Shown here piece by piece: positions 236-38,580 of a stretch of 64,000 nucleotides of DNA. Position 1 is the stretch's first letter. Every line of letters begins with the position of its first letter. A program made the translations under genes and the position numbers. The notes beneath the pieces are model-generated. The model ran no database searches and was not told the DNA's origin. It saw only the letters and a program-made list of their open reading frames with translations. The DNA is from Amphibalanus amphitrite (Eukaryota; Arthropoda; Thecostraca; Balanomorpha; Balanidae). The stretch covers positions 620,001-684,000 of the forward strand of contig NW_024881675.1 of assembly GCF_019059575.1 (NCBI RefSeq). Reading direction: 5' to 3'.

Positions 236-239
236 TTAA

Positions 240-16500: not shown

Positions 16501-19500
16501 AGGGAGGTTCCGGATGACCAGACATGTAAATGTTTGCTCGAGGTCATCTGCTGGCAGCTCCTTTTTTCTTGCCACGGGACTCAAACTTTCGTGCACAGTT
16601 TTTACCAGTTCCTGAACGGAGTATTTCTTTAACTGTTCACTTACTTTTTCCACTGTCGCATCAGGTTTCTTGGAAGTTTCAGCTGCTTCATCAGATCTGG
16701 AATCGCCTTGCTTTCTCGGGTCTTTCACAGAACCCGTTTTCGTTTTCGGATCCATGGACAATGATTCAGTGCGGTTCCTCCCCGTCGAATCTTGAGACGT
16801 CTTTCCTGTCGCTTTTTCTTTCGAGTCCACTTTATCAGTATCCCCATGCCTAGAGACATTTCGGTCGGCTTTGTGGGACGATGGACGATCTTGAGAATGC
16901 TCTCTGCGATGATGGCTTGAAGAAGATCTAGATGGTTCGTGACGACTTCTTCCATGACTAGAATGCTTTAGCTCTGCTTTTCGCTTTTTTCTCCTCTCGA
17001 TCTCAGCCTTCTTCCACTCTTCAAAGCGCCGCCGTTTCGCGTCCGCTAATGTTTCGCCTTTCCTTATCACAAGTCTGCTTTCACTGGAGTGAGGACGATC
17101 CCTTCGATCTCCTTTATCACGTCGATCATCAGTTGAGCCATGTCTTCTGCTACCGGACTCACCAGATCTGTGCCGACTTCTAGATGAGGAGCTGCTGCCT
17201 CCTTCTCGTCTTTTCTCCTCTGAGGTCCCACCAGACGTGCTACCTGCACCCAGGTCTCTGTTCAGCTCTTCCAAATCCTCTTTAGAGAGCGGTGGCTTCG
17301 ACATAAAAGATGGCCTGAAGGTCGGCTTCTTTCGAATCTCGCTCCACTCATCTTCCGGATTGTATGCATCACTCTCTGCGGGCATTGTCGTCGCGCCACG
17401 GGGATCTGTGCCATGATCACTGCACCCCGGAACTGCGATATCATCAACACGCAGCTCACTATCGGGGGTATCAGTGGAGCTTTCACGTTCAAGCGGAATG
17501 ATTTTCGGACCCCTCGAAGCAGATGCATCAACGTCTGGTGGACTCTGTACTTCAGTTTCATCCAGGGTTTTTGACATGCCGATCATCAGCTTTCGGAGAA
17601 TTTCTCTTCCCCTTTCAAACTTTTTGTCCTTGTGGTCATTTCCAGCAAACGCCCCTGGGATCTGGGCTACGACTTCGGGACTTGGACTACGAGGTTGGTC
17701 CATTTCGTTGAAACTCGCGGAGGGCGAGGACATGCTTATCCGTTCCACAAATGAGCTGAGTGGTGGACTGTGAACCGGAGGGTCGTCGGAGAGTCGGCTG
17801 AAACAAAACACAAACATAACTGTTAGTGTTGTAAGAACAGGTACCGATCCAATACAGGATCGGGGTATTTATGCATCTGTAAAGTATGGTCGTTCATTCT
17901 ACAGTATTCTAGGCATTCGAGGCGGTCATTCAAATTCTTGGACTTAACAGAAACAGAAACCTGGTGGTTACATTTGATGAGACAAAGCTACGATTCACCG
18001 TACATGCTTACACATCTTATACACGGTAAAAGGCTTTGCAGCGCCTTTTCAGGACCCGATGTTTATTGATTCCATTCCATTACAATACAATGCATACAAG
18101 GGGAAATATTCTTGCAAAGCGGACGAATTAAATTAAATGAATAAAAAGGGATGGTAATGGCGCTGCCTGAATACCTCGCGCCTGATGAACTGGGGGCAGA
18201 GCGCTGAACTTCACGGGGAGGCGATGGCCTCTCCCACTCCGATTCCGGATACAGCATGCGCCTTTGATGCTCTGGTGGCGGCGGCCGTTGGGGCTGTGGT
18301 CGCGCTGGCTGAGGTAGCTCCATAACATCATCATCCGATTCCTGAAATGCCAGACGAAATCAGGAACGATTGTTTGCTGTAATACGTCCAAACAGCACTA
18401 CCACACAAATGACGTTTCAGTCTGAACTGTATTCAACAGTTTTCTTATTTAGTGAACATGTATATGCTGCACAAAAACACACGTTCACCGGTGAGTTTCA
18501 ATGGCTCACAATTGTACTTTACACAGTCATTCCGTTGCTTTAAAATGAACTCTTGTTTCAATGGTAGGAACATCATAATGCTAGGCTCAAAAGCGAACAT
18601 TAAAGCTTCCGAAACTTACCCCTTCAATCTTGTCATGTAGCTTTTGAAGGACACCCTCACATTTCACCAGCAGCTCGTATTTAAGCCTGCAAGATGTGGT
18701 TGTGCATAAATTACTCAGAAGTAAATGGAAACGAAAGAATCGATAACAGCGATGACTGACATCTTTCGGAGATCATAATACAAGAAAAAAAAATATATAG
18801 GGATATACCAACAACTAGAAAATGCATAAATGGACCAGTAACGTTTCTACACTAAATATCTTGGAAGCCTATCCTTAGTTCAAAACATATCGCTTTCAAA
18901 TATCAGAAACATACCTACCGAGAATTTATATTTGCCCCGAATTCACAGAATATTTACAGCAGTGGAAATACAATGCAACGATACATTTTCCTCGATGAAT
19001 TTGCTATCAAAACTAGTGGCAATGCAAGCTCCTGGTTCACGAGATTCCCAGATGAGGTAAGTTAGTGCACGGCCACCAATAATAAATTAAACCGACGGTT
19101 TAACTTAAACCGTGCCGGGCCGGAGGTGTTTAGACACCTCCCCTCCCCCAAGCAGTTTTCCACAAATATCTTTAAAAAACGGCGGCGGCACCTTTTCATG
19201 CATGTTTTTTGCATACGTTGTAAAAATTTCAGTCTCAGCCCCAGGTCTATCAAGGTCAGGTCACAAGTTCACATTCAGTGGTCAGTAACCTACCTAAAAA
19301 AGCTTCTATTGCTCGCCATAACTATACCGACTGAGCAATCGTTTTGAAACTTTCAGCGATTGATAACTGTAACAGTACCTTAGCATATTTCTCGGAACTT
19401 GGATATCTGTGACAAAGGGTCAAGTAACTTTTGCGACTCTCCATTACCAGTCAATGGGAGAAAATTTATATGCGCCGTTTTGGACGAATCATACTAACTA

Positions 19501-22500
19501 AACACTCTCAAACATCGGGTTACAGGTAAATATGTCAAATTAAATCAGAAACTCGTACCCGTGACACCTCTTAATGCTCCTGAGGTTATCTAAGGCCATG
19601 AAAGGTCTCCGAAAGTTAAACAATAAGTCTTGATAGACACGCTAGAGCAATAAAACAACCGTTAATGTGTTGAACTCGATGGTACGGATCGACTGATATG
19701 CAACAAGACCTTTTGTGGTCAGATCATGAACATGACCTGAGATCAAATCTTCAAAATGACCTTTCAATGTAAGGTTAAATCAGTTCTTTCGGGAGGGGAG
19801 TGCGATAGCGGCCAAATCAATGTCGTGCAAGTTTTTTTAAGAAAAAGGTTTTGCAGAAAAGCGTTTTCTGAAAAACGTCAATTTTTAGTTTTTGCTCTTT
19901 GGATGCCAAACATTGATCATAGATCAAATCTGCAAAAAGTTAACAGAAATAAAATCGTTAAAATATCTATCAAATGCGTTTTTCCACGGCACTGTGGCTC
20001 TATTTCTTCTAGAGTTCACGACAATGTCAAAAATGTTGAAATAGACAAAGATTGACCTTCGGTGACCTCTGGTGACCTGACCTTTGACCTATTATAAAAA
20101 AAATGACTGGAGTACTAATAACTCGTGATTTTTTTTTGACGCTCTTTCTAATGCCACTTGACATGTGTCGCTACGTGGCCCAAGAGAGACACATCGTTTC
20201 ATATACGGAATGCGAAACGGCCTTTCAGTAAACATAAGAGCGGAACGTGAACGTAGCACCAATACTTAAACTTGGCATTTTAGCTACCTATGCTTTCTAG
20301 CATGTGACAGCTAATTGATTAGGCCTACGATATGCATAAAGAATTCAGCGCTATCATAAAACACACGATTGAAGACCAAAGTTGGTTAAATATCTCGGAT
20401 ACTTATTGCGTTAACACCTAGTGGTACCTCCCCCCCCCCCCCCCATATTCAACGTCCCAAGGTCAACAGACTGCTTAAAATTAAACTTTTCCTTCTAACA
20501 CAGCAAAGGAGTCCATTAGTTGAAAATTGCACCATTAACCCTAGAACGCCTAGGGGGGGGGGGGTTGTATCAACCCCCCCCCCCCTGAGGTTTTTTCGAA
20601 GTGCACGCTAAACGGCTTGTCGTAGCGGGCTGAAATTTTCAATACCCTCTGGGGCAACCTTTGCGCATCTTTTGCCGAAAAAAATTGATCGGGTCATGTC
20701 AGGTCACGGAGTTATGACGTCATAAGAGGTACAGCCTCCGGCCGGATTTTCACAAACTGAGTGCCAACGCCCGAGGTTTCCTGCCGGTGGTACGGACATC
20801 GGTTGATGGATCGTGATGAAACTTCCCATGCATGTTGGGGCAAGTATTGGCTATCATATGGTATAAAAAATTTGACCGGGTCAGGTCAGATCACGGAGCT
20901 ATGACGTCACAAGAGGAACAGCGTCCGGTACTATTTTTGAAAAGCGCCCGAACCACTATTTTGCTAATTCTTGTCACCTCAATGGGAATATGCAGCAATA
21001 TTAGCTTCTATAGGGAGCAAATGAACCTCCCAAATCCAAAAATACAATCAGATTTCAAAAATTTAAATTTTGATTTTTCGAATTTCTGCCGCCGACTGTG
21101 ACCTTGCCGACTTCCGGCGCTCCCAACGCGCCATTTTTAGAGCTAGGGAAACGAAATACATACCAAACGATAGAGAATTGATCAAGGAACACGATAGTGA
21201 AGGTTTCAAGTCGATATCTCCCACCGTTTTGCGGCAATCGCCGCCGAAAGTTGAAAAAAGTCTATTTTTCCGAAAATTTGACCTTTGACCGGTCAAAAGT
21301 AGGTCAAATGTTGACCTAGGACCAAAAAATATACCACCAATCGCGAGATCTCGTTGAGAGCAATCTGTTGGTTTTTTCCGCTAAGCTCTACGACCTTCCG
21401 TTTCGAAACGCCAGGGGGGGTCGTAACAACCCCCCCCCCCTGGTCGTTCGTGTTATGAGAAATGGCCTGGTCGTGCGAGGGTTAAGGAGTTTCCACGGTC
21501 TAAAAGCAAAGAAATTCTCTAGCCCAAAAAAGTATTTTAGTTTGCAATCGGCATTCCATCAATCAACCCATACTGTCAACCTTAACCGGGAATGAAGGCG
21601 TAGGTATTAAGCAGTTGCTTAGTGGCAAGCCAGTCATCTTACATTTGGTCTAGGCTGCTGTTTGGCATACAAGGGAGCGCACCGATACTTAGAAGAATGA
21701 TCGGCGTATGTTTCAGTAGCGATACAACTTCTGCACCCAGCAGAATACATTGTGAAGTGAAGACATTAGGACAGAACCCCTTTTACAAATCCTCATATAC
21801 GCCCTGCTTTTAAGATCAATCCCTTTTTAAATGCAGGTATTGAAATACAGCTTACGGAACGAGACAGTTTCCATAAAATTTTACGATCAAGGTAATGTAG
21901 CGCTGTATGTCCTAGCCCCTTTTTTAATTTGCCACGTTCCAGCACACGTTTTATCCAAAGCAAGACTTAATGAAATATGCCTTAAACTCACAACATTGTG
22001 GTGCAAGAATGACTAGCCTTTAGTGAAAATAAAATCACACCTACTTTCTGGAGCTGTCCGTCAATATTGCATGCAGATGTTTCATCTTTTGCAGCTGCGC
22101 CGTTCTCGTAGGATCGTTTGTACGCTCCAGTTTGGTGATCATTTTCCGCAGGAACGGCAAGTAGCGCTGGAGCTTTTCGAGCTTCTGCTCGTACGATGGA
22201 TTGGGACCTGAAAACATTAGCAAAGGAACGGTATGCAAAAGCTCACCATGAACAGATAGGAAAAAATTGCCGCAGATACACGAGCAAACAAATGAAAACG
22301 AATCAAAACAGGATTTAACATTGAACATCGACCGCAATTGCGTACATGATGAAATGCACATACTTCGATCGTGAATCTACGGACTACGGCAAAAGCGCAT
22401 CAAGTTAGTTCTGAAATTCAAACACCGTAAGGTCTTCATGAAGCGGTCCGAAACGTCTTGCTGAACTACGCAGCCCTCATACAGAACGGTGCAGCATAAT

Positions 22501-25500
22501 ACAGGGGCGTTATTATGGCATGGAACGCATCTGATAGACGGTATTGAAAATGTGTTTGAATAAAGCGATGACGGATTATCTGCTCACCTTGTAAGTTGCT
22601 CATGGCTGGATTCAACAATGGACTCAGAAGCGACGAGCTGAAAAGGAATAAAATCGTACAGTAACGAGTAGCCCGTTGTTTATTTACAACAAAATCCACG
22701 TTCCTGCTCTAATAAATAAAGATGACATTATTAAATCAGGTTTTATTTTAGGTAAAAAGCCCGGTCCAACAAAAATGACATACCGCAATGTTGGAAAACG
22801 TTTGATGAAACAGGCATTAAGGTGCATAGATGCTCCACCAGCAGCATGGCAGACTTGTGACAGCTCAAGAAAAAAGTGAGCTCGCTCAGCTCAACTCCGT
22901 CTTATCCGCTCCCGCTCAGCTCCCGCTCAGTTTAACGCGGCTCAGCTCAGCTCACGTTCCGCTCAAACCGGCTGCGCTCCGCTCACGCTCAGCTCAGCTC
23001 AGCTCAGTTTCCGCTCAGCTCAGCTCAGCTCAGTTTCCGCTCAGCTCAGCTCAGCTCAGTTTCCGCTCAGCTCAGCTCAGTTTCCGCTCAGCTCAGCTCA
23101 GTTTCCGCTCAGCTCAGTTTCCGCTCAGCTCAGCTCAGTCTCCGCTCAGCTCAGTTCAGTTTCCGCTCAGCTCAGCTCAGTTTCCGCTCAGCTCAGTTCA
23201 GCTCAGCTCAGTTTCCGCTCAGCTAAGCTCAGCTCAACTTAGTTCCCGTTCAGCTCAGCTCAGTTTCCGCTCAATTCAGCTCAGCTCAGTTTCCGCTCAG
23301 TTAAATTCAATGCCACCCATTGCCGAATGCCGAATGCCACCCATATCTCCGTAACGTGTCGGGGTCCGGCCAATGACGTCACGGCAATGCGTGTGCTGAT
23401 TGGTCATGGACATCGAATCATCGGGACACAGGTCGGGACATCACGCCGCAGTGGATAAGGATACCAACCGAACGGCTTAAAACGGTGCGAACGGGGTGCA
23501 ATAGAGGAATGTAGCGATTTCCCGACCGATCGCTTCAGTTTGCGGTGTCGAACTACATGGCCTTTCACCTAGTGACGTCTTTGGTTTGTATTATAATATT
23601 ATTTCCAGTTTATCATGTTTCTAGTGTTTATAGTGTATCAATATTCAATGCACATTGCATTCGGTTTTATATTTTTATCCGTTCTCATCATCTTCCAGTG
23701 TACCTACTACTAGAACTGGATCAGCTCAGCTCAGCTAAATCAGCTCAGCTCAATCAGCTCAGCTCAGCTCGCTCAGCTCAGCTCAGCTCAGCTCAATCAG
23801 CTCAGCTCAGCTCAGCTCAGTTCAATCAGCTCAGCTCAGCTCAATCAGCTCAGCTCAATCAGCTCAGCTCAGCTCAAGCTCATTCAGCTCAGCTCAGCTC
23901 AAGCTCATTCAGCTCAGCTCAGACAGCAGCTCAGCTCAATGCATTACTGAGCCGGCTCAGCTCACAGCTCAACAATTTGGCAAAATGTTGAGCCGGCTCA
24001 TGAGCTGAGCTGATTTTTGAGCCGGCTCAACTGAGCTGATCACAAGTCTGCAGCATGGAGCCAGATGTCTTGCAAATGGAAGCACAAAACGATCGAACAT
24101 TAATACACGAATGTGACAAAAGTTACAACTACTATTACATGTGTAAGTACTTCCATAGGTGATAAGCAGGCACGCACCCAGGATTTTGCTCAGGGAGGGG
24201 CCACAGGTCGCGGCCTAGTCAAGTACACCCTCAAAAAAGGAAAACTCCTCGGATTTGGCCCACTATTTTTCGGGGTATGGTGCAGCTGTTTTAATCTATT
24301 GTTATTTTTTATTCAATTTTATTTTATTTTTTCGCCTTCAGGGGGGGGGGGCATGGCCCCCGTGCGCCCCCTTGGCTACGTCCCTGGTGATAGACAAGTA
24401 GTTTGACATCCGTCGCCATAAGTCCGGCTCAGCTCGTGAAGTTGACTTTGAGGCCGTTCTTGAAGAAAAATGATGGCATCACGGGGCCCGTGCCCTCTTA
24501 CTGGGATATTTATCAACAGCATCATGCACTCTCCGGATGAATTCCAGTCCGTATGGCATCCGAGCACCGCGAATGCTTCTTCCCTTTGGCTACAGATGCG
24601 GTCATCGCCAGGCGTCGCAAATCGAGCCTGATCTCCAAAGCAAAAGATCTGACCACTCTTAGGAACGAGATAATCCCTACGTTTCCATGAACGCGTAAAA
24701 CAATTGAACGAAATTCCACGTGCATTTTTCTCGGATACTATTCACCTTTGCAAAAAATGAGCGCACATAGGCTATGCCTATGGCTTTAGGCATAGCCTAT
24801 GGCTTTAGCTAGCACCTAATCCTATATTTACAATTCTAAACGTCTAAATAATATGACGGAGAATCTTTTTTTTTGCAAAATCGGCCGAACTTGTGCCATG
24901 GTAACGTAGTAAATCTCTTATAACGCCCCCTTCCTATATACCGGGTGGCGCAGAAAAAAAAAAACACGTTTCTAGCTTAAAATCAATATTTCTCAAAGTG
25001 ATAAGGTTACAACATTGAAACTTCGAACAGTCAATGAGTCATATTTTCAGTAAATAGTGTGATCTTTATGCAAATCAGTGACTAACTTTTTGAACCGTTC
25101 GTGCTTCTATCATGCCATGTAAAAATTGCATTTTGCTCAAATTTTTACTCAAAATGAGTGATCGAGCTACTTTCATAATTCATTCCCGCGCCACGGCCTG
25201 CGCCCTATGATTGCTACTCGCAGCTAGTTTCATTGATGGTTCAGGGTGACACGTTCTGTCAGCAACCACGACGGCTCTCTGCAAGTGGCTACAATGAGTT
25301 TCCAGTGTTCTAACCATCTTCAGGTGGCTCAAATGCTCTACTGGCTGGTATTGCTGGGAAAATGTAGCTTTCAACCAGCTACATGACATGGGAACGTCTT
25401 TACAGCCCTAGTGTAACGCAAGAGTTATGTTGCTTGTTGAGCTGTGGAGCGCGATATCTAATGAGTAATGCCTCTAGTTTCCAGAGACGAGACGTGCTCT

Positions 25501-28500
25501 GTTGTCCTGTGTTTTGATGATGGTCGCATTTTCAGTCAGAAGTTTTCTAGTGATAGGTCTGGTGCGCTTGCGTCATGTTTTGTGCTGTATTTGTGTTGAT
25601 TTGGTGCCCCGGCCGTCTCTAAGGTGCATGGTGAGACGACTTGATAGTGATGTGGTTGTTTGTAGCGCCAATGTAGTTTATTTCACGAAACCTGTAATCT
25701 TCGTACGGACATGAAAATTCGCAAACTACATTGGTGCGTTTGAGTTTGTCTGTGTTGTCTTGCATGTTGTTCCGTACGAGCAGGCTACTTGTTTCGCTTT
25801 TTTTTGTAAAAGATGATGAATTTCAGTTGGTCAGTGGCGTTTGTACAGGTTATGTTTTCCACGATAATTTGTTTGATGACGTTTTCGTCTATTTTGTACG
25901 AGGGAGACACGTGGTTGCGATAATACAGCGTAATAATATTTCCGGAACGGCCTTTTGGGGTCATATTTTTGCTTGTCTCTCTATATCAAGATGCTGCTTA
26001 ACCCACACCCTGCTGGGGGGAGGGGATGTTCCCCTCTCCCCTGCGGGTTTTCGCCAATATCTAAAAAAACAGCGGCGCATACCTACATCATTTCTACATA
26101 TGTTGTGAAAATTTCAGACCCAGGTCACTTAAGGTCTCCAGGTCAGGTGAAGTGACCTCACTACCTACATAAAAAAGTTTCCATGTCTGCCATAGCTAGT
26201 AGCTACACAGAGTTACCGATCGCTTTGAAACTTTCAGCGATTGAAAGAGCAACGGTATGCACAAAATGTTTATCTCGAAATTTTGATATCGGTGACCTAA
26301 GGTCAGGCGAATTTTGCGACCTCCCATTATAAGTCAATAAGAGAAACTTGAAAGTCGCCTCTTTTAGACGGAAGTCATTATAAACACTCAAACACTGAAT
26401 TACTAGCTATATAGTATCTTAGACACACTGAACATGAAAATGGCACCCGTGACCCCTTTTATGCCCCTGTGGCCGTATTCACAATCACCGGTTAAGGGTA
26501 GGGGTAGGAGTAACGGGTAACGGGTTATTTTTTGTGGCCGTATTCACAATCGAGGTTTACCCCGATGGTCGCCCGGCGGCACCTGGCCTGCGTGCCGCGT
26601 GGTGCCGTCTGCGTGACGCCGGGGCACCGGGCGACCATCAGGGGTAAGCTTCGAATGTGAATACGGCCACAAAAATAACCCGTTACCCGTTAATCCTACC
26701 CCTACCTTTAATTAAAGGTAAATTGTCAGCTAAAATACAAAATTTGATATTTGGTAGAATCAGCACTCCACTTTACGAGACTGAAATCAGATTTTCGAAA
26801 CTCGGTCTGAGCCACGACTCACGAGTAATTTCATGTTGAAATTGGGATTTCACCTACTTTTTGTACTATTTTTACGTTAAAACCCACCAGATTCCTCAAC
26901 TATCACTACCGGTCAGGTCATGACCTTGACCCCAGGTCAAATCTTGAAGTTGACCTTTCAAGGTCAACTTCAAGTTCATTCGACGCGTCTTGACGAGAGG
27001 AACACGATGCTGGTAAAAGAAAGTTCGTGCTAGGTTTGAGTCAAAAGCTATTGCAGAAAAACTGTTTCCGAAAAAATCGGCTATTTAGGCGGTTTTTGCC
27101 CCCTGCAGGCAAAACCATTGACGATAGGTCAAATCTGATGGAATTTGTCAGAAACAGCGTTACTGGGACTATCAAATGTGCGCTTTTCAGCGGCACTGCA
27201 ACTTTATTAGTTTCCGAGCTGTGCGTCGATTTGTTGAAAATTGTCGAAATCTGACCTACAAATCGGCGAATTTTGGCCTTCAATGACCACTGGTGACCTG
27301 ACCATTGACCTGACTAAAAGTGGCCGAAGTGATTTCTTCCTTAGTTTTGACGCTCTTCCGAACGCCGCCTTTTCCGTATCGCTACGTGCCCCAGGAGCCG
27401 ACATAGAAGGGGGTGTTCAAACCACCCCGCAGCAGGGCGTGGAAATCCAGGACCCCCAGCGGGGCGCGGGTTAATTTCTTCGTCAATTTCCCTAGTGGAA
27501 AAGCGAAAAGCCATTGTTGACCAAGATCTATTTCAGTCTTTCAAATTCCACTTGTATGAGTACCCAAGAGGAACCGTCTTCGACGGGTCTTTTGATGAAG
27601 GCTCTGATAACACTTGTTTTGTATCTCCCTGAGCACTCACCTTTGCCGTTTAGACATTACCAAGAGTCTGTGGATTTCCTGTATACTGATGATTCATAGT
27701 TCATTGAGCCTCTTACGTTAACCATGATAACTATCTAGGAAATCTAGGAAAGGTACCTAATCTAGGCAAGGTTATCCAGGAAAGTTAACTTGTTTTCAAC
27801 ACTAAGTCCGTAAGTTAACCCTCGCATGTGTAGGGGGGGGGGGTCGGATGGACCCCCCCATGGTTTTTCGCGAATAACTCGCGTAAAAAGCGGCCGATCG
27901 CGACGAAACTTTCAGTACCCTCGCATTGAGCAATTTTACACCTACCCTGAAAATTTCATGACCCTGACCCAAATGACCTTTGACCTGTGACCTCTTTTCC
28001 GAGACCATGTTTGGCCGGAATCGCGATTTCGCGTATGTCGGCTCGCACTAGCCGCGTGTTTGCAAGCTTTTCGTGGTTTCAAACGTTCAAACATGTGATT
28101 TGATGCTACTCCCGTGTGTGTCAAGGTCACCTGAAGGTCAGGTCAGGTCATTGACCTTTGGTGACCTCGGGTGACCTCGGGTCACTTTTTCGAGTTTTAC
28201 ATGTTTCTAGGCTAGTTTTTGGAGCTGAATTCGAATTTAGCAACCATTTGAACATTTACGAAGTAGTTTTGGTGATTTCGTAACATGTTACGAAGCTGTC
28301 AGAGGCGGTTGACACGTACTACGAATACCCGTCACGACGCCTACTGGTTGACCTGACCTGACCTGGCCCGACCTGGTCTAAATGCTTCAAGACATCATCT
28401 GTGATCAAAACTAACACGATATTCGTGATCAGCACCCCGAAAAACCCCTTAACAGCCACACTTTACGACTTTCTAACAGGTCCCGATTTTCCCGACTTTG

Positions 28501-29305
28501 GGTCATTGACCTGACCTGGAAGGTCAATCAATGACCTAGGACCTTAAAATTGGGTATCATCGGCTTCCTCTCGTCACGGGCAACACGCTCGTTTTTTCCG
28601 CGAAGCTCTAGCTCGATCAGGGGCCAAACGGCAAGGGGGGGTCCAACCGACCCCCCCCCTACACATTAGAAGCTGGCAAACGCCGCACACATGCGAGGGT
28701 TAACTTGAGCACTGAGTTTGTCTCCATTTTCTTGATAATCTTTAAGGTGGTCTTTTTTCAACTTCGCTGGTGTATTGCCATCACACACACACGCACAGCT
28801 AACAAAGAAAGGACAAGAAAGAACTCAACGGCGTAACAATACGTAAGTTAACTTGAGCACTGAGTTTGTCTCCATTTTCTCTATAATCTTCAAGGTGGTC
28901 TACGTCCATAACGTAGGGCTATTTCCAATCATCAGTTTGAGGGCACAAAGCCACCATTACTAGGCATGAAGCGCCATAAGCCATCGGTTATGCTAAAATA
29001 TCGGAATTATTGGTAAGACTCGAACCCTACTAAGCTGCAAAGAAATAACGTCTACACGTCCCGAAGCCCCCCTTTCCCTTATCCTCCGCAGGGGCTTACC
29101 TATGTGCAAAGCTAATGGTCCGATGATGAAAATGGATGGAAAACGGTTTCCCACGCACTTTGTTTTTCATTTCGTTTAAAGCTAACTTTTCCATTTCCGG
29201 TAACACGCCACTAATTAGGCTCAATTATGACTCTCACCAGGCAGCATGAAAATAGATCATGCCGGACCGCAGCGGCAAACAGTCTGGGACAGGGCATAGT
29301 CGTTC
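10545..29305 (-). CDS. RRM plus multi-C2H2 zinc-finger protein, 5' end incomplete
   Basis: Visible coding exons (minus): 29305-29238, 22637-22588, 22207-22045, 18686-18620, 18341-18175, 17797-13210, 12854-12776, 12461-12058, 11679-11541, 11194-11064, 10724-10545. All junctions are GT-AG and in phase, giving 2011 residues plus stop. Order: a short cysteine segment (CPVPDC); a leucine-rich helical pair (KLEKLQRYLPFLRKMITKL) whose spacing recalls helices in MED15; a charged Ser/Arg-rich region; an RRM at about 591-675 (CLVIRNLP as RNP2); Lys/Glu-rich coiled segments; acidic SDSDSESE; about five fingers at roughly 1200-1400; an IKQEP SUMO-type site; then about six more fingers, two of them split by introns. 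Probably a large nuclear RNA/chromatin-associated factor. No named orthologue recognised. The first two exons are the least certain, and the initiator Met is not found. Confidence 0.78.
13210..17797 (-). CDS. Giant 4.6-kb internal exon (RRM and five zinc fingers)
   Basis: A single exon of 4588 bases with acceptor TTTCAG at 17803-17798 and donor GTAAGT from 13209. It encodes the low-complexity charged region, the RRM (about 16540-16290), Lys/Glu-rich helices (about 15880-15720), the acidic Ser/Asp cluster (about 15370-15330) and fingers such as CMYCSFNGKKVIFHYVMSH, CRFCKFKTVNSQELFDHITSH and CKLCGFVQLHERNLKKHMADSH. It makes up about three quarters of the visible protein. Confidence 0.88.
19105..20197. 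mobile_element. Decayed TTAA-type element, intronic
   Basis: Starts near TTAAACCGTGCC and carries a perfect hairpin GGAGGTGTTTAGACACCTCC at 19127-19146. The body matches the element at 26002-27470 over much of its length (for example GAAACTTTCAGCGATTGA and the tract ending near GACGCTCTTTC). The right end is not clear, so about 20197 is where the similarity fades. Contains several AGGTCA/TGACCT motifs. No coding capacity seen. Confidence 0.65.
20539..21481. mobile_element. TTAA-flanked piggyBac-like MITE
   Basis: A 943-bp element between TTAA at 20535-20538 and 21482-21485. Ends read CCCTAGAACG and, reverse complemented, CCCTCGCACG. Just inside each end is a G-run/C-run hairpin: G-run, TTG-TAT-CAA, C-run at about 20551-20584, and CCAGG...GGT...ACC...CCTGG at about 21411-21442. 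The body repeats motifs around GGTCAGGTCA. Non-coding. Confidence 0.85.
21486..22849 (-). other. Intron sequence between and around small coding exons
   Basis: Apart from exons 22207-22045 and 22637-22588 of the RRM/zinc-finger gene, this stretch is AT-rich with no feature I can name. Confidence 0.5.
22850..24050. mobile_element. Non-autonomous hAT-type element filled with GCTCA arrays
   Basis: Flanked by a perfect 8-bp duplication CAGCATGG (22842-22849 and 24051-24058). Terminal inverted repeats begin CAGACTTGTGA on the left and end TCACAAGTCTG on the right. Both arms are GCTCA/TGAGC pentamer arrays (about 22865-23310 and 23718-24045) around a roughly 400-bp unique centre. The left array alternates with CAGTTTCCG spacers, while the right one contains GAGCCGGCTC palindromes. 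The 8-bp duplication with CAG ends is diagnostic of hAT. No transposase is present. Confidence 0.88.
24167..24386. mobile_element. Small hAT-like MITE, 220 bp
   Basis: Ends CAGGCACGCACCCAGGATTTT on the left and, reverse complemented, CAGGGACGTAGCCAAG on the right. They sit between GTGATAAG (24159-24166) and GTGATAGA (24387-24394), an 8-bp target duplication with the last two bases diverged. It carries a G-run near the right end and no coding capacity. It lies only about 110 bp from the larger hAT-type element. Confidence 0.75.
24395..25997. other. Intron sequence, no gene seen
   Basis: Intron of the RRM/zinc-finger gene. The only structure noticed is a small repeat/palindrome of TAGGCATAGCCTATGGCTTT type at about 24766-24812. 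A poly-A tract lies at about 24954-24963. Confidence 0.5.
26002..27470. mobile_element. TTAA-flanked MITE, 1.47 kb, with a nested palindromic insertion
   Basis: TTAA at 25998-26001 and 27471-27474. Left end CCCACACCCTGCTGGGG with the hairpin GGGGAGGGGATGTTCCCC near 26015-26032. The right end is CCCCCAGCGGGGCGCGGG. The body carries GGTCAGGTGAAGTGACC-type motifs and is related to 19105-20197. A second element (26469-26708) interrupts it. Non-coding. Confidence 0.8.
26469..26708. repeat. Nested double palindrome with GTGGCCGTATTCACAATC ends
   Basis: An inner inverted repeat (26534-26670) starts GTGGCCGTATTCACA and ends TGTGAATACGGCCAC, with a GC-rich stem containing GATGGTCGCCCGG/CCGGGCGACCATC. 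It sits in the middle of an outer palindrome whose arms are TAGGGGTAGGAGTAACGGG and its complement. The outer left arm begins with the same GTGGCCGTATTCACAATC at 26469, so one palindromic element seems to have landed in the centre of a relative. Confidence 0.85.
27819..28699. mobile_element. TTAA-flanked piggyBac-like MITE, best preserved copy
   Basis: An 881-bp element between TTAA at 27815-27818 and 28700-28703, with inverted ends CCCTCGCATGTG and CACATGCGAGGG. Subterminal hairpins: G-run, TC-GGATG-GA, C-run (about 27833-27859) and G-run, TC-CAACC-GA, C-run (about 28635-28660). The body has dense GGTCA/TGACC motifs, for example 28135-28185 and 28349-28377. An uninterrupted copy of the flanking sequence at 28841-28905 (GTAAGTTAACTTGAGCACTGAG) gives the empty target site. 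Confidence 0.92.
28700..28912. repeat. Direct duplication of host sequence beside the MITE
   Basis: TTAACTTGAGCACTGAGTTTG and about 50 further bases occur at 28700 and again at 28848 with few differences, 148 bases apart. The second copy lacks the MITE and retains the GTAAG that lies left of the inserted element at 27810-27814. Confidence 0.85.
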
Positions 29306-30539
29306 CTGTAACCGATTCGAAACAAGTTGAAGTGGAAAATGAATAGTTAATCCGCAATACGCGATAAATGATGAACGATATTCCGCATATTTCATAAAAA
29401 ACATTACCGACTCGGTCAAAACAAGCACGTAATATCGTCACTCGTAGAAGTCATATTGATCGCAGATGTCTATGGCAAGACCGTCCTTTTCACCACCACC
29501 TATCACATTCACAGCCCTTACTCCTCAGCGAGTACATGCGTGTGTGTGTGGGGGGGGGGGAGGGGGGAGGCGGTGCCGATCGATGATAGGGCTCGACTCC
29601 TCCACATTTCTAACAAACTGGGAAACGGAAAGTCACAGACCACAGTTCAGCAATAAATCAACTCAAGCTGACCTACCCCGACATCCCCCTCCCCCCCCCC
29701 CCCCAACACGCATACGGCATACCGATCGCTTTCGGGCTACCATTCCCGTATGCCGCGTACAGATAATGCCTGAAACTTCGGAGACGGTAAGTACACATCG
29801 GAGCAGCGGGCATATGGAGAAGACGACTTAGCTTGTAGGCCCACAAAGACGTGATATATAGCTTCCACCATGCCTAATATGGGTCTTCCATCCATGAGCT
29901 GTGCCGTGTGCGATCAATGCACTGCACAGTCGAGTAGTCAAAGGTAGCAATATCGTGAAAGCTACTGGAAGCTATGGAACAGCCAGCCAGCCCCACTTCT
30001 CAATTCTAGAACTACCGAAATCAATAGCATGCTACCTAATTCCATCCACAACAGCGAAAAGTTCGGCTTCAAAATGGCCGTCTTACGTCAGGCATGCGGT
30101 CTGCCACCGCAATGGCGGACTGACGCTAGGGAAGCGTCAAGCGTTACGACAGGGGTGCGCGGCCTTCTTCTCATATGTTATGGCAAAATGGTATACAAAT
30201 CTCAATCTCATACCTTGTAGACTTATGAAGCCTGGAACTTAGCAGGTTACTTCAGCTTCTCACTGTAACTGATGGGATGACGTCCGATGTCTATCCATCG
30301 TTTGCACCGCAGACAAAGGCCCCTCAGCGCCGCCCGCCGCCGTAGTCCTTCCAGCCAATCTGAGGATACGAATAGTCCTTGGAGTGCGCACAGGCACCCT
30401 CCTTTCCGATCCTCTTGCCTAAATGTCACACTTCACCTACACACATTCAACAACTGTGGTTGAAAGCCAGCAAAAACAGAATGGGATCTATTCAAATTCC
30501 CCAAACTCCACACAGCACAACACATACCAAGCGGCGGCA
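28913..30539. other. Non-coding stretch with one small exon
   Basis: Contains exon 29305-29238 of the RRM/zinc-finger gene. Otherwise only simple runs are seen: (GT)n/G-run at about 29540-29562 and a C-run at about 29690-29704. A possible non-coding exon (about 30264-30215, minus; CAG acceptor, GTATGAG donor) has in-frame stops, so it could only be UTR. Confidence 0.45.
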
Positions 30540-30690
30540 GTCGACTGTCGCCTTGCCTCGTTTCTGAGCATGCGCAGTAGAGCTGCGCGTGAGTTGTTCT
30601 CACCGCAAAAATGGCGGCGCCCGTCTGGCGACACGCGTGACGCGCTTTTCGCCGCGCTTTCACTGCCGCTGTGTTGCTGATGCCAATTCT
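30540..30690 (-). promoter_or_regulatory. Likely CpG-type promoter of the RRM/zinc-finger gene
   Basis: A GC-rich island in AT-rich surroundings. It holds GCATGCGCAGT (NRF1-like) at about 30567-30577 and AAAATGGCGGCGCC (YY1-like) at about 30608-30621. On the minus strand the sequence ...CATTTTTGCG is followed by GTGAGAAC (donor at 30603), as expected for a non-coding first exon. It lies 1.3 kb upstream of the first coding exon found. The transcription start was not observed. Confidence 0.45.
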
Positions 30691-31252
30691 TCAGTCTACA
30701 CGATTCTGGAAAGCATAAGAGCTACCTCACCGAAGCTTTAGATACTACAGGTGGGTGGTTATCATAAGATGATTAAGATTTGAAAGATTTGAGGGCTTTT
30801 GTCATCTTCTGCTGCTGAACTGGAACCTGCTCAATATTGATATTGCGGTTTAATGTATTACAATTATTGTTGAATTTCTCTTGCTCATCTAGCAACAGGA
30901 TGATTTTGAAATGATAACTTTAATTGGGAACTTTTGATGGAGATTAATTGCTCAAGTTCAAGGCATTGATTTGATCATCAAATTGAAATGGCTAGGTATC
31001 TTACCTATCCAGTCTAGGTAGGTATATTTAACCTACCAGGGTCAATATATACCTCAACCTACAGCATTAGTCCTGAATTTAGTTTGATACTAATATCCTA
31101 CCTATCTATAGATAAGTTTGGCAGAGGAATATTCACTGGTTTTTATTGATATTGTACTTTTGTTTTTGTTGATATTTTTAGGGCCTCAGTCATTCATATG
31201 TCATTTGGAAGCAATACTTAAGTACCTAACTTAATATTCTGACAGACATTTC
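30691..31252. other. Intergenic, AT-rich, nothing recognised
   Basis: Contains short TAGGTA-type runs near 31010-31050 only. Confidence 0.5.
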
Positions 31253-32495
31253 TGTTGTGTCCCGCTTCTGTCCACCTCGTCACACGCCCGGGAGACCCCA
31301 GAGTGCGGGTTTATTGCGAAGAAGCCAAAGGAAAGCACAACATAACCGATTGTTTACATTTTTCCAATACCACGTTTCCGGAAGAGAATGAGCCTGTAGT
31401 GATGGGGGTCCTCTTCACTCGCCATCACTGACCGCGTAAACTACAACTATTACACCTTAGTCTCTTATCGGGGCTGGACGTTAGATCTACAGAGACCCAA
31501 AGAACTCGGTCCGACATTACAGATATAGGATCGCTTCTTCAACAAGAAACTAAATATACGTAATACACTCACAGAAATCCAGCACTAAACAGAGTAATAA
31601 ATAAATACAACTTCGGCGCGCCTGAGACATATTCGGCGCACAAACAAACTCCAACACCACCCCTCCCTTTGAGGGAACACACTCTACTCGGGGCAGCCCC
31701 CTCGACCTACCTACTGGTACCGGTCCGGCGTGAACCGGTCAGGAGCCCGGCGCCGGCGACTGCCACGGCGCGGAGAAACAGGAGAGGTCTGAGGATCCGC
31801 CCAAGGCACGGATAGCTCCCCGGCGGCGTGTGACACAGGGCGGACTCTGGGCGGACTGACAGCGCCCTCAGCGCTCCCAGATGGGACCGAGGAATCCGGA
31901 ATAAGGCTGGCCGGTAGCTCCTCCACTACCGGCTCCTCTGTGGCACGCCCCGGCACGAGACGCCTGGCGTGCACTCTGTCCCCCGTGCTTACCCTGTAGC
32001 TCACAGGGCCGGTCCTCTCCCGGATCTGGACCGCCGGCTGGCCTTCGACCCGACCGCTGACCGGCTTACGAACCCGTACCCAGTCTCCTGCCTCCCACCT
32101 GGGGGCGGCGGTCGCGGTGCGATCGTACCTCCTCTTGTACGCCGACTGATAGCGGCGGTGCCGCCGGCGTACCGCGCGTTTCCGGCTGTTTCCGGTGGGC
32201 GCGTCCCGCTTCAGCACGTCCAGGGTCGTGCGCGCCTCCCGCCCCCTCATCAAGCGGAACGGCGTCTCCCCGGTGGCGGGGTGCGGAGTGGCGCGGTACT
32301 CACCCAGGAACCGACGCAGGTAGGGTGAGCGCGGCTCCCGCGCCAGCCGAGCCGACTGAATGGCCCCTTTTATCGTGCGGTTCAACCGCTCGACCAGCCC
32401 GCACGTCTGCGGCGAGTACGGCGAGCTGAACGTCTGCCGCACACCACATTTCGTCAGAAATGCTCGGAGCTCTGCCGATCTGAACGCTGAAGCGG
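31253..32495 (-). mobile_element. 3' remnant of an old Ty3/Gypsy-type LTR retrotransposon
   Basis: On the minus strand, a stretch matching the end of an integrase (core segment with SPYSPQTxGLVERLNRTIKG and an arginine-rich C-terminal region) is followed by a purine-rich tract and a probable LTR at 31253-31659 (TGGTG...ACACAACA in minus sense). Only the 3' end of the element is present: gag, protease and reverse transcriptase are not seen and no second LTR was found, so it is a broken fossil. Family assignment rests on integrase style and is tentative. Confidence 0.75.
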
Positions 32496-33504
32496 GACAC
32501 AACAATTTCGTGCCATGCGCTTGATAGCCTGCCTGTACTCTATTGCCCACCCAAAAGCTCCAACAACACACACAGATGTTTCTCGCAAGGCACTTTATAC
32601 GTCCTATACCATCACAGCAAGCATTGCCTTTTACCAAGGTTTTAGTATGAGATTTAAAAATAGCTAGATCCGTGCTGATGCCACAGAGTCAGAGCATTCA
32701 AATGCATAAGTCCTTCTGAATCAAAGTGCTGCAGCTTTGAACTTCAATGTTTTCAATTTAATGCATTTCTTGATGCTGCAAGTGCTGATGCGATGCAGGT
32801 GATTGCGAGCCAGGGACCCCAATTTGGCTAACTCTCCAAAAATAGTTTGCTGATTAATTTCCTGTAAGCTCCATCACTCTGTGTGAGAGACTCACTAGGA
32901 GAGTTGTGAAGTTGTGTCACTTTGGAACGGTGTAGAGATTTGCTTATGATGTTGTAGGTCAGTGAATTGACCTGAGCAAAAATGTGTTGGTGTCTTTTTT
33001 TTTAATCAAAAGTAAGCTATGCCAACTTTCATCTCTGTCCCTAGCAGGTGCTAAGCAGTCATCTAAAAATGGAGTAGCCAGACACTACCTTACAGTGTCC
33101 CAAAGTTATATTTTGGCTTGGGTGTCAGAGGGAGAAATTCTCCACCAAAAAGGGGATAGTGAAAAATTTTCTGTTATGTGGGACCCTAAAAGAGTGGGAA
33201 AGGATCAAAAGTATATATTTCTATTCAATTATGGTAGGATATAGGATGTAAAAGGACCATACATGCAAATGCTTTTTCTTGGTTAAATTGGGAGTGGAAA
33301 ATTGCTCTTCAAAATTGGAGAAGAAAGTAAAAATTGATCTTCATTTTGATGTTGTTTCCCAACCAAAGCTACAAATTTTGGAGCGGTAATCTGTTATGTG
33401 TCAAAGAACTGCTTTGAACTGCTGTGAATGGTTTACTTCATGCTGCAAACTTTTGAGCATATGTTTGAAAATAGCTTGATGTCACTCAAGTCACATTCTT
33501 ATAA
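32496..33504. other. Intergenic, AT-rich, nothing recognised
   Basis: No gene or repeat recognised. The 32500-32640 part borders the LTR fossil and its origin is unclear. Confidence 0.45.
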
Positions 33505-35134
33505 GGGGGGGGGGGGGGGGTCGAACAGACCCCCTTGGTTTTTCGTGAATAACTCGCGTAAAAAGCGGCCGATCGCAACAAAACCCGGCGACCCGCTGGG
33601 CTATTCAGCCATACGCGCCCTGCTGGGGGGGGGGGGCAGATTCTGCCCCCCCCCTGTCTAACATCCGAACCGATGGTCGTAGAAAGACGGGGAAAACGGC
33701 AATCGAAAGCTCTCAACAAGGCGGATCTTAAGAGCCCAAAATTTTTTGCTTAAGTAGGTCAGAGGTCAAGTCAAGGTCAGGTCAAGGGTACAAAATGCAA
33801 GTTTCTACAGTATCGGTCTTGCACCGTAGTTGCCGAAGAATGGACTGAGCCTGATTGCCCAAAACGTGTCCTTAGACTACCAAGACAATATTTGTTGCAT
33901 ACAATGTCATTCAAAGGTCAAGGTCAGGTCAGGTCAGGTCACCAAAAACAAAATATAGAAACGGACATGTGCGACACATGTTTTATGGGTCATTTTACTC
34001 ATAGAATTCAATAGGCACACTCAATAAGTGATATGGACCACCTCTGGATGAATTTCAGGTCGAGGTCAGGTCAAGGTCAGGTCAAGTGAGGTCAAATTTT
34101 GAAGTTGGTTGTTAAGGCCTAAAAAGGTGTCTATCTGATGCAGTTTTTCAGGGCGAATCGAATGGTGCTATTTTTGTTTCCGTACGAGGTCTAAAACTTA
34201 AAACAAAAAATCATTTTTCAAAATTTTTGTATGTCGTTACTTCATAAAATTTTGAATAACTCCCACATTTTTGAACCCATTCTTTTTAAAGTTGGTATGT
34301 AGGTGCACATAGACCACTTCTCTGACATACATTCCGGTTTTTTCGATACACTTAAAATTTTGGATTTTATAATTATTTTCCCAAAATCGTTAGTTTTTTT
34401 AGAAAAAAAATTGGACCCAAATCAAAAATTTTCAAAAAACCGAGATAGCTATTTGATAGACAAAGTAGAATTACGTGTAATCTTTTTTTTTTTTGTTACG
34501 TCTTGATTCCTTTAAAAATGAAGATGTTAGCGGCGTTTGAAATTTTGCCGTTTTTGAGGCGAAAATGGCGAACATGACGTCACTAAAACGTCAATATCTA
34601 AAAAAATTTCTGATGGATTTCGCTCAAATTTTCAGGGAATGTGTCAACTTGATGTATGATAAAGTACTGAAAGTTTGACGTCGCTGGCGTAACGCGTTTA
34701 GAAGTTATTGGCGAAAAACGGGAGGGGCAGATTCTGCCCCCCCCCCCCCCAGCGAGGCGCGGGTTAAGAAATTTTACACGTACCCTAAAAATTTCATGAC
34801 CCTGCCCCAATGACCTTTGACTTGTGACCTATTTCTTGAGACCATGTTTGGCCGGAATCGCGATTCGGCGTATGTCGGCTCACATTATCCGCGCGTTTGC
34901 AGTCTTGTGGTTTTAAACGTTCAAACATGTGAATGATGTTGTCCCCATGCATTGTGGTGGGTGTCATTGTCACATGAATGTCAGGTCAGGTCATTGACCT
35001 ATGACCTATGACCGAAAATGCGGAATTTTGAAAATCGGCCGGGGAATTACCGAGATCATACGGAACGCCGCCCCCCCCTCCCCCCCCCCCCTCTACGGAT
35101 GGTAGAGTCCGCCGATAGCCCTAAGGGGCGCGGG
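33505..35134. mobile_element. TTAA-type MITE split by a second element
   Basis: The left part (33505-33590, G-run then TC-GAACA-GA and C-run, then TTTTTCGTGAATAACTCGCG) and the part resuming at about 34768 (AAATTTTACACGTACCC) align with consecutive sequence of the element at 27819-28699, so they are one copy interrupted by another. The right boundary is near TTAA at 35135-35138. About 20 bases of the host element are missing at the left junction. Confidence 0.75.
33591..34763 (-). mobile_element. Nested TTAA-type MITE, same family as 37400-38580
   Basis: In reverse orientation it matches 37400-38580, including the block CACCGTAGTTGCCGAAGAATG at about 33823 and the tract GGTCAAGGTCAGGTCA. Identical hairpin cores GGGGCAGATTCTGCCCC lie near both ends (about 33631-33647 and 34724-34740). 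The right end reads GCGCGGGTTAA. The left boundary is approximate. Confidence 0.78.
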
Positions 35135-35138
35135 TTAA

Positions 35139-36014
35139 TAACTTCGCAAAAAACGGCCACAGAGCTGCGATTTTGGCATCATCGTGTTCGCCTTGCTCAG
35201 GCTTGTCGAATGGTATACTTTTTGTTCGGGTGAGATCAATTTGAGGCGTTGACCTCGGGTCAAGGTCAGGTCAGCGCCCCCAGGTCACGGACTTGGTCGA
35301 AGGAGGTCATGTCGCATATTGTTCGATTCAGCAGGTCTTGTTAAGTCCATTGGTGGCTTTCACGATTCGCTAGCTCAATTTGATCCGGACTTATTAACGA
35401 AAAACTCTTTTGACCCAAGTGACGTCATAAATGACGTCACGCAAGGTCAACAATGCAAAAGTGAAGTATCGGACCTTGCCAGGAGTGCAATAAATTATGA
35501 TTCCGTTTGCTTGAGATAGTTTGAGATTGTTCCCGGCGTTAAATAGCAGTTTTTCCCCCATCGACTTATAACGAGTTGACAAGGTCACGTGACCGACATG
35601 ACCTCATGTGACCTCGAGGAAAAATCCGAGGTATGTAAGTTGTGAGACCTCTGGAGGATACTACATCCTGTATGTTTCATCTCCGGTAAAGGTTCCTCTG
35701 GCACTGAGGGCGTAGCGAAGTTGCGACATCTGACTGTGCATAGCTATAGGTTCACTTATGACGTCATAGGCCAGTGACCTGACCTGACCTGAAAATGCGT
35801 TTGAAGTCACAAGATGCGGCTTGGATCAAAGGTCAGGTATGCCAAGTTTCAGCTCTATATCCCCGGCGTGGTCGGAGCTATCGCAAAAAAGTCAATGGGG
35901 AGCCGGTTGCCGGCCGAGGGGGAGGAGCGGGTGCCGCCCCCCCCCCCTCAGTTTTTTTTGCGATAGCTCTGAGCACGTTGGCGATAGAGAGGTGACACTG
36001 GGCATAGCTGACCC
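35139..36014. repeat. Repeat segment shared with 36245-36900
   Basis: Begins TAACTTCGCAAAAAACGGCC and runs through AGCGCCCCCAGGTCACG. The same order of motifs recurs at about 36245-36700 and, inverted and more diverged, at 37185-37380 and 59640-60120. GGTCA and TGACC motifs are frequent. It looks like the interior of another TTAA-type element whose ends are not clear. Confidence 0.65.
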
Positions 36015-36018
36015 TTAA

Positions 36019-37076
36019 CCCTCGCCGCCCGCCGGACCTATTGGTTTTCTACATACGCGCCGGCCGAGGGGGGGGGGGATGGGTACGACCATCCCCCCTT
36101 CGCCGTTTCACCCCTGGTAGAGCTAGCGCGTCGTGGAAAAAAACGAGCGTGTGCGCCGTTACGATACGCAGAGATTGATATCCGATTTTAAGGTCCTAGG
36201 TCAACCGGTGACCTGTGGGGTCAGGTCAAGTGCTTTAAGGTACGGTTCCGTTTTTGGTGAATAACTTCGCAAAAAATGGCCGCAGAGCCGTGATTTTGGA
36301 AGCATCATGTCTGCCTCGCTCAGGCGCGTCGAATTATATACTTTTTGTTTGAATGAGGTCAACATAGGGTGTTGACCTTGGGTCACGGTCAGGTTAGCGC
36401 CCCCAGGTCACGAACTTGGTCGAAGGAGGCTATTTCACATACATATCATTCGATTCGGCAGGTCTTCCTGAGTCCATTGGTGGCTTTCCCGACTCGCTAG
36501 CTCAATTTGATCGGACGTTATTCACGAAAAACTAATATGACCCTAATGACGTCGTCAGCATTGCAAAAGTGACGCATCGAACCTTGCAAGGAATGCACGA
36601 AATCATGATTCTGTGTGCTTGAGATATTTGAAGATCGTTCCCGGCGCCAGAATGGTGTAGGTATAATGGTGAGGTCACGAAAACCTCAAACCTGACCTCA
36701 TGTGACCTTAAGGAAAAATCCGAGATAAATGTACAAGTTGTGAGACTCCTAATGGATACTGCAGCATTTTAGGCGCAATTTCAAAAAAGAAAGTTAAATT
36801 CAAAACGTTCACGTGTGTTTCGAACTTAAACTTTTTGAATTTGGCCTTTAACTTATTGAAATTGCGCCTAAAAAGGTGTAGATCCTGCAAGTTTTTTTTT
36901 ATTTGTGAAAGTTCCTCTGGCAGTGAGGTTATTTGGGTCAGGGTCATGAAATTTTTAGGGTAGGCGTAGAATTGGTTAACTGGAGGGTACTGAAAGTCTC
37001 GCCGCGATGGGCCGCTTTTTGCGCGAGTTATTCGCAAAAAAAAACGAGGGGGTCCGTCCCCTATAAGTGCGAGGGG
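36019..37076 (-). mobile_element. TTAA-type MITE, reverse orientation
   Basis: TTAA at 36015-36018. The left end CCCTCGCCGCCCGCC and hairpin GGATGGGTACGACCATCC (about 36077-36094) correspond to the right end of 27819-28699 reversed. The other end, GTGCGAGGG at about 37067-37076, follows a G-run/C-run hairpin near 37045-37062. The TTAA on this side has been lost. An interior block is shared with 35139-36014. Confidence 0.75.
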
Positions 37077-37399
37077 TTTGGTGGAAATATGGAAACTGCG
37101 ATGATCTAAAACTACCCGAAACACATGGAATTGTGATTTCATGCACTCCTTCCAAGGATCCTAAAAGAGAGGCAATGAGATGCCTCTCTTTTGCATCGTT
37201 GACCTTGCGTCCTTGACCTTGACCTTGCGTAGTAAGGTCATCAAAGTTTTTGTCACTAATCCCCGATCAAATTTAGCTAGCAAATCGGAAAAGCCACTGA
37301 CTCGGCGTGACCTGTCGAATCGAATGATATGCGAATTATCTCCTTCGAGCAACGTTGTAACCTGAGTGGATCTGACCTTACCTTGGCCCTAAAGGTTAA

Positions 37400-38580
37400 C
37401 CCGCGCGGGACTGGGGGGGGTAAATTTTACCCCCCCCCCTTGCGAATTTTTGCAATATCTCAAAAACGGCGGCGCGCAGCGCCGCCAAACTTTCAGTACC
37501 TTTTCTTACATCAATTTGACACGTTCCCTGAAAATTTGAGCGAAATCCTTTGGAAGTTTTTTTTTATAGAAAATGACGTTTTAGTGACGTCATGTTCGCC
37601 ATTTTCGCCTCAAAAGCGGCAAAATTTCAAACGCCGCTAACATCTTCATTTTTAGGGGAATCAAGACGTAACAAAAAGTTTACACGTGATTCTACTTTGT
37701 CTATCAAATGGCCATCTCGGTTTTTTGAAAATTTTTGATTTTGGCTCAATTTTTTTCTTTAAAAAACTGACTTTTTGGGAAAATAATTATAAAATCCAAA
37801 TTTTGCGTGTATCAAAAAACCGGAATATATGTCAGAGAAGTGGTCCATGTGCACCTACATACCAATTTTTAGAAGAATCGGTTCAAAAATGTGGGAGTTC
37901 TTCAAAATTTTATGACGTCACGACAAACAAATATTTTGCAAAATGGTTTTTTTGAAGTTCTAGACCTCGAACGGAAACAAAAATAGCACCATTCGATTCG
38001 CCGTGAAAAACTGCATCAGGTAGACACCTTTCTAGGCCTTAACAACCAACTTCAAAATTTGACCTCACTTGACCTGACCTTGACCTGACCTCGACCTGAA
38101 ATTCTTCCAGAGGTGGTCCATATCACTTATTGAGTGTGCCTATTGAATTCTATGAGTAAAATGACCCATAAAACGTGTGTGGCACATGCCCTTTTCTATA
38201 TTTTGTTTTTGGTGACCTGACCTGACCTGACCCTTGACCTTGACCTCTGAATGATATTGTATGCAACGAATATTGTCTTGGTAGCCTAAGAACACGTTTT
38301 GGGCAATCAGTCTCAGTCCATGTCTCCATTCTTCGGCAACTACGGTGCAAGGCCGATACTGTAGAAAGAAACAACTTGTACCCTTGACCTGACCTTGACC
38401 TTGACCTCAAACTTTAAATTAAGTGCATGTTATTAGTTGTTCGTGATGAGATCTTTCGATTTGCGTTTGAATTTTCCGAATCGGACCATTAGTTCGGGAG
38501 ATTACAGGGGGGGGGGGGGTAAAATTTGCCCCCCTCCCCCAGCCCCGCGCGTTCGGCTGGAGACCCCAGCCCCGCGCGGG
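37400..38580 (+). mobile_element. TTAA-type MITE, 1.18 kb, rich in GGTCA/TGACC
   Basis: TTAA at 37396-37399, decayed to TTAG at 38581. Ends CCCGCGCGGGACTGG and CCAGCCCCGCGCGGG. Hairpin cores GGGGTAAATTTTACCCC (about 37423-37439) and GGGTAAAATTTGCCC (about 38517-38531). Overlapping TGACCT motifs at 38058-38098, 38213-38248 and 38382-38408. Confidence 0.85.

Follow-up and report, generated by a model that had tools for sequence, protein, structure and literature searches.

Subterminal G-run/C-run palindromes with concerted half-site changes in TTAA-flanked elements of Amphibalanus amphitrite

The 64,000-nucleotide stretch of Amphibalanus amphitrite DNA analyzed here (contig NW_024881675.1, positions 620,001 to 684,000; hereafter the window) contains TTAA-flanked elements in which a palindrome composed of a G-run, a core, and a C-run lies just inside 17 of the 18 element ends examined. 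We consider it probable that these are non-autonomous piggyBac-like elements, and that the palindrome is a duplex site read half by half by a dimer of transposase C-terminal domains. A sequence-only reading of the same DNA had called the hairpin undescribed, which is too strong, as the available portions of three papers describe inverted repeats at subterminal and inner positions in piggyBac-like elements (PMC7351741, PMC11707139, PMC12324416). What appears to be new here are the G/C-run arms and the half-sites changing in concert, subterminal repeats as such having already been described; among the matches listed from the literature on piggyBac-like subterminal palindromes, the text available does not describe half-site covariation or G/C-run arms.

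Results

Elements and their ends

Element A, which runs from TTAA to TTAA at 236..1122 on the plus strand, has its long end on the left (palindrome 282-308) and its short end on the right (palindrome 1078-1104). The reverse arrangement, with the short end on the left, is found on the plus strand in C (20535..21485; palindromes 20553-20585, TTG-TAT-CAA, and 21414-21440), D (25998..27474; 26015-26041 and 27409-27428), B (27815..28703; 27833-27859 and 28635-28659), and F (37396..38584; 37413-37439 and 38507-38534), the last with a changed TTAA beside its long end. Element E (33584..34767, minus strand) has its short end at 34767 (palindrome 34724-34750) and its long end at 33584 (palindrome 33625-33654), where the left TTAA is lost. 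It is nested at a TTAA within B2, a partial copy of B (33487..35138, plus strand), and this TTAA, matched by eye, is uninterrupted at 36976-36979 in the related copy B3; a comparison by eye also indicates that at the left junction of E the TTAA is gone together with a small deletion. We take 33487 (short palindrome 33505-33534, tip eroded) and 35138 (long end, minus strand, a G-run without a C arm) to be the two ends of the single element B2. In the case of G/B3 (36015..37079, plus strand), the long end at 36015 has the palindrome 36068-36098, ATGG-GTACGA-CCAT, and the short end, at about 37079, has the palindrome 37048-37061 and a TTAA that is not kept; B-like sequence inside both suggests that the G and B3 ends belong to one element. 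There are in addition two single ends. The short end H (19105..19143, plus strand) consists of TTAA, 13 bp, and then the palindrome GGAGGTGT-TTAG-ACACCTCC within 19122-19143; its long end was not found in the window, and its interior is 68% identical to element D. The long-end palindrome K, TCG-GTA-CGA (60262..60280, minus strand), comes from a B-like element that has lost its tip.

Classification and coding content

The TTAA flanks by which the piggyBac superfamily is recognized are found at both ends of A, B, C, and D and at one end of E, F, and G/B3, where the partner is changed or lost. The tips likewise agree with the CC[C/T] terminal motif and 12-19 bp TIR of piggyBac elements: CCC is present in 15 of the 18 ends, the exceptions being H (ACC) and the eroded B2 and K, and within an element the tips resemble each other, with a perfect match in A only. 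The complex ends of the T. ni group, with a subterminal palindrome at both ends and a shift of about 28 bp, are also matched, the repeat lying at 26-28 bp in six of seven long ends, and the long end of B2, which has no palindrome, is an exception to the both-ends pattern.

No stop-free frame above 123 codons was found inside the seven elements as cut, and two longer frames (911-2320 and 36708-37160) cross element borders into the flanks. Eight frames, drawn from C, D, E, F, and G/B3 but not from A or B, were scanned against Pfam with no relevant match and one weak below-cutoff match that we judged to be chance. From this lack of coding frames and Pfam matches the elements are taken as non-autonomous. 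An exact 20-base search with the inner sequence of B found no match in viral and bacterial/archaeal collections, from which entries close to the window's own genome may be missing. Elsewhere in the window, a FAD-oxidoreductase-like frame (PF01266) is located at 39458-41032, and the Pfam scan of window frames gave a below-cutoff integrase match.

Palindromes compared with chance expectation

The 48 TTAACC/GGTTAA sites in the window (one of them, at base 56, with its flank cut by the window start) include 16 TTAACCC/GGGTTAA tips, of which 11 lead to a palindrome, one (35138, minus strand) to a lone G-run, and four (2754, 42167, 42636, and 63446) to neither. Another six ends, in which the tip or flank is altered (H, E_long, F_long, B2, B3, and K), bring the total to 18, and the end at 35138, having no C arm, was left out of the complementarity counts. 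All 11 stem positions named in the sequence-only reading were found in the window sequence, and we added six palindromes, at 282, 1078, 21414, 27409, 37048, and 38507.

For the chance tests the G and C runs were removed, and the outer three pairs of the cores (fewer in short cores) were compared. Across all 17 palindromes, complementarity holds at 38 of 49 outer core pairs, against a mean of 14.2 and a maximum of 28 in 50,000 within-core letter shuffles. When the 3' triplet was swapped between the 15 ends whose cores have at least six bases, the observed 36 of 45 compared with a mean of 19.2 and was reached in none of 50,000 swaps, and with 3' partners swapped among eight ends, one per family, 21 of 24 compared with 10.4 (exact fraction 1e-4). 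The palindromes that had been listed before contribute 28 of 32 complementary pairs and the six added 10 of 17, for which the shuffle mean is 4.9 and the fraction reaching 10 is 0.006. A tiny control (n=6) of other G4..C4 stretches in the window, two of them with cores three bases long and one of them (35918) perhaps an eroded end, has 7 of 13 outer pairs complementary, a score that its own shuffles reach at 0.06, and the ends exceed this control at P = 0.09 only (Fisher). The control member at 35918-35947 is an isolated imperfect G/C palindrome without a TTAA tip, and it follows a GCCGGCCGA motif that also stands before long end G.

Core length is odd in 14 of the 17 palindromes, which is suggestive only. 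The G- and C-run lengths are unequal in 15 of 17, the tip-side G-run being longer than the inner C-run in 10 and shorter in 5, with 2 ties (sign test, P = 0.30).

Geometry of short and long ends

Each of the seven two-ended elements (A, B, C, D, E, F, and G/B3, the last as paired above) has one short and one long end. The distance from TTAA to palindrome in these elements is 13-14 bp at the short end (in D_short, up to the start of an interrupted G-run) and 40-49 bp at the long end. The distance from tip to palindrome centre is 21-35 bp for the nine short ends and 52-67.5 bp for the eight long ends, the values for B2, B3, E_long, F_long, and K resting on assumed tips; the spread partly tracks G-run length, and may have arisen through run-length change after insertion. 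The tip motif of the long end is repeated further in, at 28 bp in A, 27 bp in C, D, E, and F, 26 bp in B, and 32 bp in G, which falls outside the 26-28 bp range of the other six, with shuffle fractions of 0 to 0.066 over the seven long ends. A candidate cryptic palindrome in the long-end spacer stood at 0.03 of shuffles in F only and at 0.26 or above in the other six, and we make no claim for it.

Counted outward from the centre, complementarity is found in 7, 11, and 13 of 17 palindromes at 1-3 bp, in 15-17 of 17 at 4-8 bp, in 13 of 17 at 9-10 bp, in 10 and 8 at 11-12 bp, and in 0-8 of 15-17 beyond; part of the symmetry at 5-8 bp follows from the use of the G and C runs to recognize copies.

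Half-sites at the two ends of an element

The short and long palindromes of the same element have 27 of 42 stem letters alike, against 16.0 when permuted (0.006 of 5,040 permutations). The exceptions are D, whose two palindromes are unlike, with 0 of 6 letters in common, and G/B3, with 1 of 6. A fold would permit the two ends to drift apart and one homodimeric reader of four half-sites would not, so that this end-to-end sharing favours the dimer.

Elements E and F are identical at 808 of 873 aligned interior bases (93%) and nevertheless differ in the palindrome at both ends. Their short palindromes are identical at 16 of 33 positions; the first 17 bases have an identity of 0.76, and the neighbouring and opposite end segments one of 0.59-0.73. 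The half-sites of E are CAG...CTG at both ends, and those of F are TAA...TTA at the short end and CAA...TTA at the long one. Between E and F, three pairs are altered on both sides, and one on one side only, which leaves a mismatch. The earlier statement that both bases of a pair change together is borne out between families and for three E-versus-F pairs; C_long, F_long, A_long, and A_short have one-sided mismatches. The contrast between interior and ends in E and F suggests an exchange of whole ends. Comparison by eye of G with K reveals matching extra bases in both arms, ATG and CAT, and the two palindromes of E have the spacers AAT and ATT, which are related by inversion or one transversion.

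Second palindromes and inner sequences

The short end of B contains a second palindrome, TTTTTCGCGAATAACTCGCGTAAAA (27864..27888, plus strand), 28 bp inside the first, with a shuffle fraction of 0.001. T-run/A-run palindromes of this kind, placed 26-36 bp further inward than the G/C palindrome, occur in short ends A, B, B2, B3, F, and H (uncorrected fractions of 0.001 to 0.053, those of A, F, B2, B3, and H being weaker than that of B), the uncorrected fraction being 0.05 or less in five of nine short ends, and there was no marked excess over shuffles in short ends C, D, and E. The second palindrome may be a further binding site. Candidates inside the long ends, for which we make no claim, were reached by at least 0.54 of shuffles in six of eight and by about 0.05 in A and C. 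The motif AATA(A/T)CT occurs at the second-palindrome region in eight of nine short ends (not C), and because of this common motif the short ends look homologous across families despite their differing G/C palindromes. The long ends B, C, G, and K are mutually related inside.

The window also contains a repeat family without recognized ends, with copies at 35141-35665, 36264-36763, 59634-60092, and 37179-37389 that are 72-80% alike, and two of these copies begin with AATAACTTCGC, resembling the inner motif of the short ends. Inside element D, at 26492-26711, there is an inverted repeat whose two arms, about 80% alike, include GTGGCCGTATTCACAATC-like sequence, and which is probably another nested foldback element. 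Adjoining the right end of A at 1118-2702 are 11 tandem copies of a 144-bp unit with 93% matches, at the period of which TTAACCATGA recurs, and two GCTCA-type pentamer arrays with higher-order periods of 14-31 bp are located at 22883-23300 and 23720-23940.

Discussion

If the palindromes are docking sites for a protein dimer, the one at each end would be bound as double-stranded DNA by a dimer of transposase C-terminal cysteine-rich domains, and the tip motif ahead of it would be read by the transposase core. The second copy of the tip motif in the long end, about 27 bp from the first, would provide a seat for a second transposase dimer, and the two unlike ends would then synapse asymmetrically. 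One homodimer would read both half-sites, so that a change in specificity would require both half-sites and both ends to be altered, and such concerted change would look like stem covariation. The binding protein is one that we infer, because no transposase was found. Several observations count against a duplex site read by a dimer. The centre distances spread over 14 bp in short ends and 15.5 bp in long ends, which is wide for a rigid complex; D and G/B3 have unlike ends, the B2 long end is without a palindrome, as are four TTAACCC tips, and the ends are set apart from the G4..C4 control at P = 0.09 only.

Selection by a dimer explains the keeping of symmetric states but not the route by which the second half comes to match the first, and here template switching between the arms is a likely helper to concerted change, as well as a possible rival. 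In its pure form, that rival holds that a polymerase template switch copies one arm into the other by mutation alone, leaving stems complementary without selection. Such events are documented for short inverted repeats, with arm homogenization and spacer inversion (PMC8604942, and also PMC7202029 and PMC3820800, in the parts available). The extra bases matched in both arms of G versus K look more like one templated event than two, and the AAT and ATT spacers of E fit spacer inversion (or one transversion). Mutation alone nonetheless accounts neither for the geometry of short and long ends, nor for the motif repeat at 26-28 bp, nor for the word common to both ends of most elements, and mismatches persist in several palindromes, so that we regard it as unlikely to be the whole account. 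Less likely still is that the fold itself works, as an extruded or single-stranded hairpin recognized by the transposase or priming copying. The sequence-only reading had taken the paired changes as what would be expected if the fold rather than the sequence is kept, and single-strand DNA folding did yield the drawn stem for each of eight palindromes (eight of 17, the better ones; z -0.8 to -5.4), but any such palindrome would fold, and the result does not discriminate. No sign of hairpin-primed copying was noticed. A preprint, in the part available, suggests that such repeats, as hairpins or cruciforms, may recruit domesticated PGBD5 (PMC12324416); in the solved piggyBac and piggyBat complexes, as the accessible text reports, the palindromes are bound as duplex (PMC7351741, PMC11707139). 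The covariation is real, but it needs no fold, because the symmetric half-sites of a homodimer covary exactly like stems, and the run lengths of most arms, as given above, are unequal. The distance from TTAA, the short/long asymmetry, the motif repeat, and the half-site that most elements have in common between their two ends instead point to a homodimer duplex site, and among the roles proposed earlier, transposase recognition is the one that is supported. It is scarcely credible that the palindromes are a product of chance or of polynucleotide runs, with adjoining G- and C-runs mimicking hairpins around cores picked by eye: the six palindromes omitted earlier are poorer and the G4..C4 control does not fall clearly short of the ends, but the shuffle and partner-swap tests included all 17, and the palindromes are placed just inside TTAA tips.

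Within the dimer-site reading there is a further possibility, which we put forward tentatively and with more doubt than belief, that the half-site words turn over fast and in concert at all four half-sites, through arm-to-arm template copying and whole-end exchange, with the 0.9 kb interior staying 93% identical, and that MITE lineages would switch transposase by trading ends. If this were true, the words would record shifting transposase specificities in this genome. Within a single genome, the families supply a natural series of altered half-sites, and the co-evolution of transposon ends with transposase C-terminal domains could be followed in it directly. Covariation in DNA palindromes is not by itself a sign of a functional fold, as dimer sites give the same signal.

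Comparison with known systems

The letters of the piggyBac palindrome are not known to be related to the G/C-run arms in the window. The window elements further differ from piggyBac (IFP2) in having such arms at all, in being non-coding, and in stems that vary between families. In layout the two are alike, as piggyBac (IFP2) of Trichoplusia ni (LE35/RE63) is described, in the portions available, with TTAA, a short and a long end shifted by about 28 bp, a duplicated motif, and a subterminal palindrome at both ends (PMC7351741, PMC12324416). Its 19-bp repeats are separated from the TIRs by 3 and 31 nt, which is a shift of 28 (PMC12324416), and RE bp 34-63 are a near-repeat of LE bp 7-35 (PMC7351741). 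The subterminal palindrome of this moth element is bound by a dimer of C-terminal domains, and at the left end the palindrome centre is at about bp 25 and the CRD site covers bp 17-33, or 8 bp on each side (PMC7351741), compared with a window symmetry that holds in 15-17 of 17 palindromes at 4-8 bp and fades beyond about 11 bp.

In the case of piggyBat of Myotis lucifugus, the accessible text describes a motif and an imperfect palindrome bound by the core and a CRD dimer, with an A/T-rich palindrome middle, similar to the window ends; the imperfect palindrome is bound via a differently folded domain, and the DNA bend is centred near bp 25 (PMC11707139, PMC13405395). Unlike the window elements, piggyBat is reported there to have palindromes on the left end only, in three units at 44 bp spacing (PMC11707139). 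The STIR and IIR of piggyBac-like elements, in the part of the preprint available, have arms of 5-15 nt and a spacer of 2-10 nt and occur at both ends, as in the window (PMC12324416), although some window arms are above 15 nt or contain mismatches. Elements of the IIR type differ in sequence from one end to the other (PMC12324416), whereas in the window the families differ and the two ends are mostly alike.

The CMITEs of corals are about 100 bp, unlike the window elements, and their main text does not contain the words palindrome, stem, or secondary structure (PMC2872659). They are nevertheless TTAA MITEs with differing TIRs and a conserved inner sequence, as in E and F, and the whole-end exchange suggested for E and F finds its parallel there, where, in the text available, a shared interior with differing TIRs suggests the same (PMC2872659).
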